Of a stretch of 33,125 bases of DNA, positions 328 to 27,881 are shown piece after piece (the first letter of the stretch is position 1; each line of letters begins with the position of its first letter). The stretch lies in NCBI GenBank assembly GCA_030262715.1, contig JAJSZR010000010.1, positions 1-33,125 on the forward strand, given 5' to 3'. Under the pieces are notes generated by a model, which was given only the letters and a program-made list of their open reading frames with translations, searched no databases and was not told the origin of the DNA. The DNA is from Deltaproteobacteria bacterium. Lineage in GTDB: Bacteria; Desulfobacterota; Dissulfuribacteria; Dissulfuribacterales; UBA3076. The position numbers and the translations under genes were made by a program.

Positions 328-407
328 CGTAACTTCTAAATAAGTCCGTGCAAATCATATTTTGCGACTATCTAATGGCTATTACCCGGACTTATTGAGA
401 AGTTACG
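328..407 (-). mobile_element. 80-bp deletion derivative of the 148-bp miniature element (copy 1)
   Basis: The ends are 23-bp inverted repeats with two mismatches (328-350 against 385-407), carrying the core CGTAACTTCT and AGAAGTTACG. Read on the minus strand, one end followed by about 45 bases of the other end matches the element at 25312-25459, including the block GATAGTCGCAAAATATGATT. The two central hairpins are missing. Flanking 8-mers (321-328 and 407-414) match at only 5 of 8 positions, so a target duplication is not convincing here. It lies between the palindrome region and the ATPase remnant. Confidence 0.75.
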
Positions 408-7494: not shown

Positions 7495-7743
7495 GTGAGC
7501 GTTCACGGAACGTTGAAATTAGAAATTAGAAATTAGAAATTTGACCTTCATGCTTTTGTACTGTTGTTGATCATTATCTGATAGCCTATGGTGTTCTGAA
7601 CTTTTTTGTTCCACTTATCAAAGTCGTGCCAGACCATATCTGATAACTCTTCTGCCAGTTTGCAAACATCCGACTCGTAAACTCGTTTCATCTTTCCCCA
7701 ATTTCTATTTTCTAATTTCAAGTTTCAAGCCGTGAACGGCTAC
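7495..7743. mobile_element. Non-autonomous cassette with IS66-like ends, carrying a four-helix-bundle ORF remnant
   Basis: The left end GTGAGCGTTCACGG (7495-7508) and the right end CCGTGAACGGCTAC (7730-7743) are inverted repeats, 11 of 14 matching. They continue inward as imperfectly inverted GAAATT-rich DNA, including four 7-bp GAAATTA/GAAATTT units at 7515-7542. The 8-mers just outside are TGTTATAT (7487-7494) and TTTTATAT (7744-7751), 7 of 8 identical, as expected of a slightly decayed target duplication; the right copy includes the ribE stop codon. IS66-family elements are known for ends beginning GTAA and for 8-bp duplications, so mobilisation by an IS66 transposase is plausible. It encodes no transposase. 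It sits between ribE and ribBA. Confidence 0.65.
7548..7691 (-). pseudogene. Truncated four-helix-bundle (S23 / 23S rRNA intervening-sequence type) protein
   Basis: A 47-residue frame starts at ATG 7691, four bases after a GGGGA ribosome-site-like stretch. It begins MKRVYESDVCKLAEEL and continues SDMVWHDFDKWNKKVQNTIG, then YQIM, which matches the N-terminal helix and turn of the small four-helix-bundle family first known from proteins encoded in 23S rRNA intervening sequences. Normal members are roughly 110 to 130 residues; here the sequence leaves the family pattern after YQIM and stops at TGA 7548. Two to three helices are missing, so it is probably non-functional. It fills the centre of the cassette 7495-7743. 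Family recognition is from motif memory. Confidence 0.65.
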
Positions 7744-7745
7744 TT

Positions 7746-8399
7746 TTATATAAACCCGTGATGTGCCAGGAACTCTGTATCAATATTGGTCTGTTTCTCT
7801 GGTTTAATATGTCCAGCCAGAACTAACTTCTCAATATACTTCCCAATAAGATCTACCTCAATATTGATTTTATCTCGCTTTTTCCTAAAACCCATAGTAG
7901 TGAGTTTAGCAGTATGCGGGATGATTGCCACTGAGAAATAGCCCTTACCATAACTGTTCACAGTAAGGCTGATGCCGTCAACTGCTACAGAGCCTTTTTC
8001 AATGATGTACCGGTCAAGGCTTTCTGGAATAGCTATAGTAAATAAAGTGAACTGGCTTAGATGCTCCTCTTCAATTACTTCTCCTATTCCATCCACATGG
8101 CCACTTACCAGATGCCCGCCAAGACGGTCCGAGGGCCTGAGTGCACGCTCAAGATTAACACGGTCTCCAACCCTGAGCCCGGATAATGTGGTCCTTGAAA
8201 GGGTCTCTGGAGAAACATCCACCCTGAAGACGCCCTCGGAGATAGTAGTGGCGGTCAGACAGACCCCATTCACAGCAATACTCTCCCCCTCCTGAGGATC
8301 TTTAATAGAAAAGTCAGAATGAATAGTAAAGACCAGACCTTGACCTGCCTGCCGAACTGCCTTGAGGGCCCCAAGGCCCTGGATTATCCCCGTAAACAT
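7746..8399 (-). CDS. ribE: Riboflavin synthase, alpha chain
   Basis: Dismutates two molecules of 6,7-dimethyl-8-ribityllumazine to riboflavin plus the pyrimidine precursor. The 217-residue protein shows the two tandem lumazine-binding barrels: MFTGIIQGLG with GESIAVNGVCLT and SPETLSRTTL in the first, and GHVDGIGEV with KGSVAVDGISLTVN and IPHTAKLTTMG in the second. Length and both repeats are normal. It starts six bases after ribD. Its TAA stop lies within the apparent target duplication of the mobile cassette just downstream, which spared the coding sequence. The same enzyme is called ribC in some species. Confidence 0.96.
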   Translation of the reverse strand: MFTGIIQGLGALKAVRQAGQGLVFTIHSDFSIKDPQEGESIAVNGVCLTATTISEGVFRVDVSPETLSRTTLSGLRVGDRVNLERALRPSDRLGGHLVSGHVDGIGEVIEEEHLSQFTLFTIAIPESLDRYIIEKGSVAVDGISLTVNSYGKGYFSVAIIPHTAKLTTMGFRKKRDKINIEVDLIGKYIEKLVLAGHIKPEKQTNIDTEFLAHHGFI

Positions 8400-16578: not shown

Positions 16579-16660
16579 TGAAACTGGAAATTCGAAATTT
16601 GAAATTAGGTAACACACCTACATCTTTGTGTTTTTCCCAATTTCAAATTTCACTGCCAAA
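16579..16660. repeat. Intergenic repeat, copy A
   Basis: An 82-bp sequence begins TGAAACTGGAAATTCGAAAT and ends CAAATTTCACTGCCAAA. It aligns with copy B at 20102-20176 along its whole length, except for a 7-bp duplication (TGAAATT) and a few substitutions. The GAAATT-rich left end and the AATTTC-rich right end are imperfect inverted repeats around a CATCTTT...TTTTT centre. It exactly fills the space between the acyl-CoA dehydrogenase stop (16661) and the etfB start region. Confidence 0.85.
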
Positions 16661-17824
16661 TTATTTTTTCGCGTACTCCTTATTTAGTGCCTTGCCGATA
16701 ACATTGCGCATGATCTGGTTTGTACCCTCATATATCTGGAGGACCTTTGCATCCCGCATCATCTTTTCAACCGGATAGGACTTCATGTATCCATAGCCAC
16801 CAAGGATCTGGACCGCATCGGTGGTTACCTGCATGGCCATATCAGTGGCAAAAAGCTTTGCCATTGCAGACAGCTTGGCAACGTCATTTGCCCCTGCATC
16901 AATGGTCCTGGCTACTGAATACACAAGGGCCCTTGAGGCCTCTATCCGAGTAGCCATATCTGCCAGCATATGCTGGATGGCCTGAAAGGAGATTATGGGC
17001 TGGTCGAACTGTATTCTCTGCCTTGCATATTTGACCGCTTCATCCAGGGCCGCCTGGGCAAGTCCGACTGCCATGGCCCCTATTCCAGGTCTGGCCAGGT
17101 CCAGGGTCCTCATGGCTATAATGAAGCCCTGGCCCTTTTTGCCAAGCATACGGTCCTTTGGAATACGGCACTCATTAAATACAAGTTCCCTGGTTGATGA
17201 GGCATTCAGTCCCATCTTTCGTTCTTTTTTCCCGAAGCTAAACCCCGGATCACCCTTCTCCAGTATAAAGGCTGTGGCACCCCTGGCCCCTTTGTTCCTG
17301 TTGGTCATGGTTATGATGGTATATATTTCCGCTTCGCCACCGCTGGTTATCCACTGTTTGGTGCCATTTATTATCCAGTCATCTCCATCTTCTACTGCTG
17401 TAGTCTGGATCCTTGCGGCATCACTCCCGGCATTGGCTTCGGTAAGGCCGAAGGCTACAAGGCGTTTGCCTGATGTGATATCCGGGAGATAGCGGGCCTT
17501 TTGCTCATCAGATCCAAAGAGCAGAATAGGATAACCTCCCAGCGCACTGGCAGCAAAAGTGGTAGTAACAGCAATGCAACCATAGGCAAGCTGCTCTACC
17601 GCCAGGCAGTTTTCAAAACAGCCTTTTGCAAATCCACCGTATTCTTCAGGGATATAAAGCCCGAAAAGATCCGCCTGGGCCATATCCTTCATGATATCCC
17701 AAGGAAATTCTTCAGCCTCGTCGAGCTTTGCTCTTACAGGAATGATCTTCTCCACGGCTATCTGCCATGCCAGATCCACGATCATCTGTTGCTCTTCGGT
17801 CAAGAAATAATTGACTTGTGTCAT
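16661..17824 (-). CDS. Acyl-CoA dehydrogenase, short-chain/butyryl type
   Basis: A 387-residue FAD enzyme that interconverts acyl-CoA and trans-2-enoyl-CoA and exchanges electrons with Etf. The start is ATG 17824 (MTQVNYFLTEEQQ) behind an AGGA site; an in-frame GTG at 17845 is less likely. Visible are IPEEYGG, the flavin/substrate block FGLTEANAGSDAARIQTTA, WITSGGEAEIY, and the catalytic glutamate E366 in QIYEGTNQIMRNVI, the position used by short- and medium-chain members. Unusually, it lies between fabH and fabG, followed by etfBA. Chain-length preference cannot be read from sequence alone. Confidence 0.92.
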   Translation of the reverse strand: MTQVNYFLTEEQQMIVDLAWQIAVEKIIPVRAKLDEAEEFPWDIMKDMAQADLFGLYIPEEYGGFAKGCFENCLAVEQLAYGCIAVTTTFAASALGGYPILLFGSDEQKARYLPDITSGKRLVAFGLTEANAGSDAARIQTTAVEDGDDWIINGTKQWITSGGEAEIYTIITMTNRNKGARGATAFILEKGDPGFSFGKKERKMGLNASSTRELVFNECRIPKDRMLGKKGQGFIIAMRTLDLARPGIGAMAVGLAQAALDEAVKYARQRIQFDQPIISFQAIQHMLADMATRIEASRALVYSVARTIDAGANDVAKLSAMAKLFATDMAMQVTTDAVQILGGYGYMKSYPVEKMMRDAKVLQIYEGTNQIMRNVIGKALNKEYAKK

Positions 17825-20101: not shown

Positions 20102-20176
20102 TGAAACTGGAAATTCGAAATTAGGTAACGCATCTGCATCTTTTTGTTTTTCCCAATTTCAAATTTTACTGCCAAA
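20102..20176. repeat. Intergenic repeat, copy B
   Basis: A 75-bp sequence matching copy A (16579-16660) from TGAAACTGGAAATTCGAAAT to ACTGCCAAA, in the same orientation, without the extra TGAAATT. It lies in the 158-base space between yceD and rpmF, which is probably transcribed. The rest of that space shows no further feature except the rpmF ribosome site. Confidence 0.85.
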
Positions 20177-20233
20177 ATACAATATCAACAAAGTGTAAAC
20201 TACTTCTAAGATTTAATGAAGGATGCTGGATAT

Positions 20234-24708: not shown

Positions 24709-25302
24709 GTGACAGTCAGAATCACCAAGGCCGCTTTTGTTACCAGCGTCTTCAAGCTCTCTCAGCTTCCATCACCCAGCTTGCCGGAAGTGGCCTTTGC
24801 CGGCAGGTCCAATGTGGGCAAATCCTGTCTTTTGAATCGTCTCCTTGGGAGGCACAACCTCGTAAAGGTCAGCTCAAGGCCGGGTTTCACTCGATCCCTT
24901 AACTTCTTCCTGGTCAATGATTCCGTTCACTTTGTCGACCTGCCAGGCTACGGGTATGCAAAGGCCCCGAAACACGTTCAGAGTAAATGGCACAGGCTGG
25001 TAGAGGGCTATATCGAGACCAGAAAACCTCTCAAGGGAGTGGTGTGCATCTTTGACATAAGGCGGGTCCCGGACCAGTTGGACATGGACCTCTTGGACTA
25101 TCTGCATGCCCTGGGAAGGTATGTCTGGTTAGTCCTGAATAAAGCAGATAAGATCTCTCAGCCCAAAAGGCAGAGGCAAATACAGGATATCTGCCGACGA
25201 CTTCCTGGATTTATTGACAAACCTTTGATTATCTCTGCCCGAACAGGAGAGGGTGTTCAGTCTCTGCTTGAAGCGATTTGGCTGCAGATGGATCCAGTCT
25301 GA
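24709..25302 (+). CDS. engB: Ribosome biogenesis GTPase EngB (YsxC/YihA)
   Basis: A 197-residue essential-type GTPase for assembly of the 50S subunit. GTP-binding motifs are complete: G1 GRSNVGKS, switch I around RPGFTRSLNFF, G3 DLPGYGYAKA, G4 as NKAD and G5 in ISARTGEG. It starts with GTG, five bases after hisG, with no clear ribosome site, which suggests coupling to hisG. A 148-bp miniature element begins ten bases after its stop; the hairpins there could act as a transcript end. Confidence 0.96.
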   Translation: MTVRITKAAFVTSVFKLSQLPSPSLPEVAFAGRSNVGKSCLLNRLLGRHNLVKVSSRPGFTRSLNFFLVNDSVHFVDLPGYGYAKAPKHVQSKWHRLVEGYIETRKPLKGVVCIFDIRRVPDQLDMDLLDYLHALGRYVWLVLNKADKISQPKRQRQIQDICRRLPGFIDKPLIISARTGEGVQSLLEAIWLQMDPV

Positions 25303-25311
25303 CGATTTTTT

Positions 25312-25459
25312 GTAACTTCTCAATAACTCAGGGTAAGATGTCTGGATTCCTGCTTTCGCAGGAATGACGATTGGGTATAAGCGCCTGTCATTCCGGCGAA
25401 AGCCGGAATCCAGTGGATAGTCGCAAAATATGATTTGCCCGGACTTATTGAGAAGTTAC
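25312..25459. mobile_element. 148-bp miniature inverted-repeat element, copy 2
   Basis: The ends GTAACTTCTCAATAA (25312-25326) and TTATTGAGAAGTTAC (25445-25459) are perfect 15-bp inverted repeats. The flanks are 8-bp direct repeats GATTTTTT (25304-25311 and 25460-25467), placed exactly at the ends, as in a target duplication, although the T-rich sequence lowers the weight. Inside are two 27-bp hairpins (25342-25368, with GGATTCCTGC; 25387-25413, with ATTCCGGCGAAAGCCGGAAT), which resemble the ATTCC-N-GGAAT repeats widely dispersed in bacteria. It encodes no protein. It separates the convergent engB and tRNA-Leu genes. Same length and layout as copy 3. Confidence 0.88.
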
Positions 25460-25476
25460 GATTTTTTTAAAAATTC

Positions 25477-25563
25477 TGGTGCCGGAGGCGAGAGTCGAAC
25501 TCGCACGGGCAAAAGCCCACGGGATTTTGAGTCCAGCGCGTCTACCAATTCCACCACTCCGGC
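25477..25563 (-). tRNA. tRNA-Leu, anticodon CAA
   Basis: The minus strand folds as a class II tRNA. The acceptor GCCGGAG pairs with CTCCGGC, the T arm is GCGAG-TTCGACT-CTCGC, and a long variable arm has GGGC-TTTT-GCCC. The anticodon loop is CTCAAAA, so the anticodon is CAA, which reads UUG. The discriminator base is A, and the 3' CCA is encoded in the genome (25479-25477). The anticodon stem has one U-C mismatch (second pair from its top), the rest being paired. It is convergent with engB, with copy 2 of the miniature element just downstream. Confidence 0.95.
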
Positions 25564-25639
25564 AGGGCCTTCTCCTGATAACAAAACCAGTAACCATTCA
25601 CGGAATTACAACGCCCGTTTTACCGCAACCCACCGAACT

Positions 25640-25749
25640 GTAAGCGTTTACAGGGTGCTGCAGATGCGAGGCATACGGGTACGCAGACGTACTCCCTGTA
25701 CTTCAAGTGCCCGACAACAAAGCAGATGCGGTGCCCTGTGAACGCTTAC
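25640..25749. mobile_element. 110-bp inverted-repeat element with IS66-like ends
   Basis: The left end GTAAGCGTTTACAGGG and the right end CCCTGTGAACGCTTAC are inverted repeats with one mismatch over 16 bp. Inside lies a further stem, GGGTACG...CGTACTCCC. The 8-mer ACCGAACT occurs immediately left (25632-25639) and again four bases beyond the right end (25754-25761), as expected of a target duplication with a small later change (CAAA). Ends starting GTAA and 8-bp duplications are features of IS66-family elements, so this is probably a non-autonomous derivative. It lies just downstream of coaBC, between that gene and tRNA-Leu. The rest of 25564-25767 shows nothing more. Confidence 0.7.
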
Positions 25750-27669: not shown

Positions 27670-27697
27670 TAATCTCCTTGCAGTAAACAAGAACAAC

Positions 27698-27845
27698 GTA
27701 ATTTCTCAATAACTCAGGGTAAGATGTCTGGATTCCGGCCTTCGCCGGAATGACGTTTGGATGTAAGTGTTCGTCATTCCTGCGAAAGCAGGAATCCAGT
27801 GAATAGTTGCAAAGTGTAATCTACTCCAACTTACTGAGAAGTTAC
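27698..27845. mobile_element. 148-bp miniature inverted-repeat element, copy 3
   Basis: The ends GTAATTTCTCAATAA and TTACTGAGAAGTTAC are inverted repeats matching at 13 of 15 positions. The flanking 8-mers AGAACAAC (27690-27697) and AGAGCAAC (27846-27853) match at 7 of 8, a convincing decayed target duplication. The 5' part (CTCAGGGTAAGATGTCTGGA) and layout match copy 2. The two inner hairpins are present, but their variable cores are in the opposite order to those of copy 2. No coding capacity. It lies between the divergent small lipoprotein-side ORF and the cysteine-rich protein. Confidence 0.9.
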
Positions 27846-27881
27846 AGAGCAACCCGATAAGGTAGTAATTTCATAGTATCA

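Follow-up and report, generated by a model that had tools for sequence, protein, structure and literature searches.

REP hairpins of the CGTC-1 class are described, in excerpts of PMC3733652, as combining a CGTC or TGTC tag with an 8-bp stem that starts with A-T and then T-A, a 4-base loop and a CCA tail, and the tail-to-tail order of paired units is termed rare for this class. According to the same excerpts, CGTC REPs were reported without a dedicated transposase, and the route by which CGTC-type REPs multiply was stated to be open in 2013. Among IS66-type insertion sequences, the ISBst12 group carries a single transposase gene, and its member ISDge4 has the ends GTGACTACTCAGCA/GTAACTGCTCAGCA and was seen to jump, generating an 8-bp repeat (PMC12898284, excerpts); other IS66 members are quoted with the ends GTAAGCGTCCGGCGAACTCACCTT and GTAACCGTCCGGGCA (PMC12888890, excerpts). 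No IS66 MITE appears in excerpts of PMC3189936 or PMC12888890, and IS66 is absent as a term from excerpts of the MITE review PMC10969869. Our literature search, with works citing PMC3733652 outside its scope, found no paper on ISBst12 with MITE or on DUF4338 with IS66, and a search for nested palindromes in a REPIN/MITE context likewise found none.

Here we describe a repeat family first noticed in a window of 33,125 nucleotides, the whole stretch of DNA analysed, which corresponds to contig C10 of a 94% complete draft assembly (G000) of 2,622,393 bases in 220 contigs. The family is very probably a MITE moved in trans by an IS66-type transposase and carrying a CGTC-1 REP pair that multiplied with it, a cargo that also rearranges.

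Results

An inserted element between engB and tRNA-Leu

Copy 1 of the MITE, in its two-hairpin form, spans 148 bp at positions 25312-25459 of the plus strand, where engB (24709-25302, plus strand) and tRNA-Leu (25477-25563, minus strand) converge on it. Its left terminal inverted repeat, GTAACTTCTCAATAA (25312-25326, plus), matches the right one (25445-25459, minus) perfectly and is identical to the ends of full IS66-type elements; the right repeat, extended inward by 10 bases (GTCCGGGCAA), resembles one end of those elements. The 8-mer GATTTTTT lies on both sides, at 25304-25311 and 25460-25467, and occurs as a single copy at the uninserted site. A single listed reading frame, 25430-25741, touches the copy; it runs across the tRNA on the opposite strand and appears to be spurious. 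The original prediction of a 148-bp element without coding capacity, with perfect 15-bp ends, an identical flanking 8-mer and a position between two convergent units, thus holds at each of these points.

The prediction had also named a second copy of equal length, which is indeed present at 27698-27845 (plus, 148 bp) and is 84% identical to copy 1. Its left target-site duplication, AGAACAAC (27690-27697), is found as a single copy in the uninserted site of the relative G006, and the right one, AGAGCAAC (27846-27853), differs from it by one mismatch (7/8). A third copy, overlooked in the first reading, is a 78-bp short form without the REP pair at 329-406 (plus), whose flanks agree at 5/8 positions. 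End-like sites with up to three mismatches number seven in the window against 0.91 expected, and 0/100 shuffles reach seven. One of them, 7823-7837, with two mismatches, probably owes its likeness to chance because it lies within a reading frame and has no partner.

Other repeats of the window deserve mention. A strong inverted repeat, GGGTAAGCGATTACCC / GGGTAATCGCTTACCC, occupies 132-168, close to the contig start. A separate family of repeats, whose inverted arms are rich in GAAATT, is present at 16587-16663, 20103-20179, 7508-7534 with 7700-7726, and 300-333, and similar sequence is found at intergenic places in G001, G002 and G006.

Relatives preserve the site before insertion. Ten were searched with engB, and tRNA-Leu directly follows engB in the same-genus G001 and G006 only; the remaining relatives have a different neighbour, a contig end or, in G004, paralogues only. 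In both G001 and G006 the engB/tRNA-Leu spacer lacks the element and holds a single copy of the target, AATTTTTC and GATTTTTC, respectively. At the locus of copy 2, G006 reads AAGAACAACCTGATAA where the window reads AAGAACAAC-element-AGAGCAACCCGATAA; the element is absent from G001 as well, in diverged sequence. For the locus of the 329-406 copy, the G006 contig stops there.

A genome-wide family with 8-bp target duplications

Two outcomes had been named beforehand as speaking against mobility, namely a lack of further copies and flanks that never match. Instead, a genome-wide search for the end 15-mer with up to two mismatches returned 72 sites, against 8 for a reversed control pattern, and pairing of ends 40-330 bp apart gave 28 copies, more decayed copies, for instance on C80, C94 and C9, being left unpaired. 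All but one of these are 78-149 bp long (27/28), the exception being 247 bp. Their flanking 8-mers are exact in 17 cases and differ by one mismatch in 4, so that 21/28 copies have at most one mismatch; a further 2 have two. The remaining 5/28, among them the 78-bp window copy at three mismatches and four copies at five to seven, show no recognisable duplication. Exact but partnerless 15-bp ends also occur at C28:17340, C48:9287 and C100:4377 of G000 (L043, L047, L051), either as decayed copies or as solo ends; the first directly precedes a reading frame that, judged by eye, we take to resemble cytidylate kinase.

The same duplication length holds across the genus, which was sampled unevenly: for G004, most of 100 listed places were fetched out of 111 exact ends, and the other members were fetched in part. 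Among 105 candidate pairs, 104 have both flanks, which are exact in 48 and carry at most one mismatch in 68. Dropping six nested pairs, none with matching flanks, leaves 99 pairs, 98 of them with flanks, and an exact 8-bp duplication in 48/98 or one with at most one mismatch in 68/98; the 99 include two chance pairs inside a G002 insertion sequence (L174 and L177). Flanks taken from different copies, which give the chance level, are exact in 0.08% and within one mismatch in 0.35%. Over the range 4-12, length 8 alone is ever identical, lengths 4-7 and 9-12 giving identity in 0/104. Exact duplications are rich in A+T, at 74% over 48 copies and 73% over the 17 of the host genome, compared with 54% in the host's own loci. 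G005 gave no match.

Full elements with the same ends

In the 94% complete host assembly, a search at E 0.001 detected no IS66 transposase and a second one at E 1e-30 yielded no candidates, so the helper transposase would be absent from this genome, lost or unassembled. In the same-genus G002, the exact 15-mer occurs at C59:2167 and C34:1837, where it adjoins two parts of an IS66-type transposase gene; one part scores 25.9 bits against PF03050 (cut-off 23.1), and a DruA-type gene (PF14236, 175 bits) lies beside the exact end and the transposase parts. The two G002 contigs break at a common 127-bp stretch within the transposase gene, a stop codon splits the second part and the outer flanks are unmatched. 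That break coincides with a small repeat of about 120-127 bp with TATACAC inverted ends (L179:3208-3334 and L180:1-127), itself inside the transposase gene.

At E 1e-30, the first G002 transposase part found matches in 5/395 genomes of the phylum; against the named genome collection, where a search may leave out near records, it matched 11 loci. Five elements of 1.7-2.8 kb carry the exact 15-mer at both ends (L288, L291, L294, L295, L297), with hosts that include MAGs of Bacillota (L291), Nitrospiraceae (L297) and Desulfobacteraceae (L294 and L295). A single exact end is found in L292 and L293 from Acidobacteria and in L296 from a Desulfobulbaceae MAG. L286, with ends GTAACTTCTCAAAAA, and L289, with ends 2-3 bases off, are each flanked by a perfect 8-bp duplication, and L287 has weaker ends and no duplication. 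No matching duplication surrounds the full element in L288, L291, L295, L297, L287 or the G002 pair; L294 runs up to a contig edge, and no end pair was found in L290, L298, L299 and L300. Similarity to the MITE runs about 10 bases beyond the 15-mer (GTCCGGGCAA) at one end of L286 and partly in others.

PF03050 is above the Pfam cut-off in P0001, L291, L286 and L294, and the C-terminal G002 fragment, P0003, was assigned to no family. The NCBIfam IS66 transposase model gives 51 (a fragment), 105 and 122 bits, all under its curated cut-off of 180. We name the parent IS66-type, of a divergent ISBst12-like branch, because its transposases pass Pfam's cut-off but miss that of NCBIfam, and so sit at the distant end of IS66 membership. 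L286, L287 and L294 have one long reading frame; L289 and L291 have an additional one of the DruA family. Genes of this family (PF14236, Druantia protein DruA) were observed at L180:855-1727, L291:4802-5512 and L289:2364-3275, in IS66-type elements with these or similar ends.

Other candidates for the parent or carrier were set aside. IS66 genes in G004 (C194, C114, C139) and G006 (C42) lack paired GTAACTTCTCAATAA-like ends. In viral contigs the end 15-mer occurs in 87 stretches; the 80 listed contain one match apiece and no pairs, and were taken as chance. Plasmid and phage collections gave no match in a search that may leave out near records.

We infer that the transposase of the full same-ended elements moved the MITE, and would have done so in trans because none of the IS66 type was detected in the host genome. 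The family is short, geneless and present in many copies, with inverted ends, a duplication of fixed length and ends in common with an autonomous element, as a MITE should be.

A REP pair as cargo

Two inner hairpins fill the centre of copy 1, REP unit 1 at 25342-25369 (minus) and REP unit 2, inverted to it, at 25386-25413 (plus); the pair is oriented tail to tail with the tags inside. Each has CGTC or TGTC, an 8-bp stem ATTCCNGC/GCNGGAAT, a 4-base loop and a CCA tail. Unit 1 carries the CGTC tag facing inward and unit 2 the published variant TGTC (PMC3733652, excerpts). Both units are assigned from sequence, stem covariation and the class definition (PMC3733652, excerpts). The corresponding units of copy 2, at 27728-27755 (minus) and, inverted, 27772-27799 (plus), are assigned from sequence and hairpin matches. 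The inner hairpins thus fit CGTC-1 REPs, as matched to the written description of the class rather than to consensus letters. In an Rfam search, the tRNA alone passes its threshold, and matches to mir-5728 and FtrB at the hairpins fall below theirs.

The two hairpins of copy 1 can also pair with each other to form one long hairpin. Variation among the 23 two-hairpin copies of the host genome supports two separate hairpins over the long one. At stem position 6, both sides have changed with the pair kept in 10 and 6 of the 23 copies, and covariation over the whole structure is 0.099 versus 0.047 in shuffles, with 0/500 as high, scores that relatedness of the copies inflates. Pairs with two-sided changes number 3, which is not above shuffles (234/500). 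As a conserved structure the long single hairpin was rejected, falling under the shuffled mean on all five measures.

Hairpin matches with at most one mismatch number 73 in the host genome (one on C72 counted on both strands), of which 53 are in MITE copies or remnants and 20 elsewhere; 46 of the 53 belong to the 23 two-hairpin copies. Ten of the 20 non-MITE hairpins were read in context, and nine of these belong to one or the other of two further, longer repeats whose flanks are conserved (L062, L066-L072). In relatives outside the family, matches to the whole element cover the hairpin part only, among the matches listed, and the hairpin class therefore exists there without the MITE.

Short, flipped and refilled forms

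Size classes in the genus comprise 70-78 bp without hairpins (16 copies), 104-105 bp with one (6), 144-150 bp mostly with two (56) and 176-178 bp with an enlarged one (6). Of the short copies, 14/21 can be derived, with 0-7 mismatches, from an available two-hairpin copy by removing a single stretch bounded by direct repeats of 5-8 bp (ATCCA, GCCGGAAT, ATTCCGGC, ATTCCCGC or ATTCC); the other 7/21, including the 78-bp copy of the window, depart from the simple slippage rule. Slippage at ACTGG as the origin of the 74-bp copy L155 was not borne out by the direct-repeat deletion test. Among the 56 sequences of 144-150 bp, 41 scored as having a forward spacer between the hairpins and 13 a reversed one, with 2 fitting neither orientation; this ratio is approximate because L059, L097, L107, L139, L153 and L163 are not clean two-hairpin copies. 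Both the short and the flipped forms appear to be products of palindrome rearrangement.

The opposite direction of change, in which the 78-bp form is an ancestral empty MITE and the REP pair was inserted later, possibly more than once, is the most serious alternative, and we consider it rather unlikely. In its favour, the 78-bp form has the look of an intact empty site, TATCCA^GTGACTG, a repeat of ATCCA adjoins the insert as a 5-bp duplication would, and other palindromes fill same-ended frames in the genus. However, a single deletion between short direct repeats fits those 14 of the 21 short copies, and in a low-resolution tree of about 67 columns, which is not decisive, the frames of 78 and 105 bp are interspersed with those of two-hairpin copies, five being identical to one of the latter. 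Hairpin loss is thus favoured, not proven, because an insertion with a 5-bp duplication leaves the identical ATCCA junction.

Further contents were seen between the same ends. L097, L153 and L163 enclose a different palindrome, GTCATTGCGAG...CTCGCAATGAC, and L106, L189 and L192 enclose one like CCCTCTCCC...GGGAGAGGG; in L060, one end only is present and is followed by a CCGGATC-type palindrome.

Transcription termination and other readings

The original prediction added that the element may supply a two-way transcription stop, and the corresponding alternative is that it was kept as a bidirectional terminator between convergent genes, the hairpins being its function and mobility secondary. Copy 1 is convergently placed with a T-run past its right end, and its RNA fold is very stable on both strands (z -9.2 and -11.3). 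Such a fold is uninformative for a terminator because the inverted ends alone give it; moreover, the T-run is older than the insertion, being present already in the uninserted sites of G001 and G006, two relatives that keep the same gene order without the element. The terminator scan, which considered loops of 3-8 bases only, calls no site at copy 1, where a long hairpin with a one-sided T-run exists. As a family function, a two-way stop is not supported by placement or by T-tail counts: a rough ORF-based count of the 28 host copies gives 11 between ORFs of the same direction, 6 divergent, 1 convergent, 1 inside an ORF and 9 at contig edges, with the truly convergent engB/tRNA-Leu copy misfiled, and a T-rich tail follows 15/56 element sides in the host genome and 48/197 overall. 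We therefore regard retention as a terminator as improbable. Copy 1 may locally affect transcripts of engB or tRNA-Leu; its insertion there is most likely neutral.

Movement as a REP/REPIN-type element by a tyrosine (RAYT, Y1) transposase, with the outer repeats incidental, could draw on the REP anatomy of the inverted hairpin pair and on four Y1_Tnp matches in the genome, but is highly improbable given that 8-bp duplications and near-perfect 15-bp ends suit a DDE transposon, that the listed hairpin nearest to any Y1 match is about 2.8 kb away and itself in a MITE copy, and that CGTC REPs were reported without transposase association (PMC3733652, excerpts).

Discussion

At the level of sequence, the ends, the 8-bp duplications, the uninserted sites and the full elements with the same ends are established. 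The model that we favour builds on a full element whose IS66-type transposase acts in trans on ends of 15-25 bp. The enzyme would move whatever DNA lies between those ends and duplicate 8 bp at AT-rich targets that lie for the most part outside genes. The central 70 bp would be cargo, two CGTC-1 REP hairpins arranged tail to tail and multiplied along with the element; the REPs here have very probably spread as MITE cargo. Being palindromic, the cargo would rearrange: one or both hairpins drop out, in most short copies in the way that slippage at short direct repeats predicts, and a minority of copies have the inter-hairpin spacer reversed.

The MITE family itself is of a known kind with an identified parent type; the notable part is its cargo of CGTC-1 REP pairs. 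Such cargo offers a spreading route for a REP class that was reported without a transposase, and a REP pair held in a transposon with duplications, uninserted sites and a known parent type makes hitchhiking directly testable. An IS66-type branch from several phyla is now tied to a MITE family, and the family shows palindromic cargo being lost and flipped. More tentatively, and with considerable doubt on our part, CGTC REPs may spread inside MITEs of DDE insertion sequences, with some REPs found outside MITEs remaining from decayed frames and the IS66-type MITEs of this genus serving as reusable carriers, because at least two unrelated palindromes are also present in elements with the same ends (L097/L153/L163 and L106/L189/L192).

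The comparison with described systems follows the two parts of the element. Its frame resembles the ISBst12 group and ISDge4 in a closely similar end motif (GTAACTGCTCAGCA) and an 8-bp target duplication (PMC12898284, excerpts); unlike that group, the MITE is geneless, and the related full elements fall below the NCBIfam IS66 cut-off, some with a DruA-type gene. MITEAba12 is likewise short and geneless, with the ends and target duplication of its parent insertion sequence, but it has other ends, a 9-bp duplication, a parent in the same genome and, in the excerpts of PMC6382973, no REP cargo seen.

The cargo is closest to dRS3 of Neisseria and RPE-6 of Rickettsia, CGTC-1 repeats with the same tag, stem, loop, tail and paired units. 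In contrast with the CGTC-1 repeats described in the excerpts of PMC3733652, the pairs here are tail to tail and enclosed in a MITE with target duplications. An outer inverted repeat around a REP dimer is known from the CGTC-1 dimers of H. neapolitanus, in 41-bp palindromes, and from the GTAG-15 dimers of A. variabilis, in long palindromes; in those excerpts the outer palindromes are not tied to a transposon, whereas here they are.
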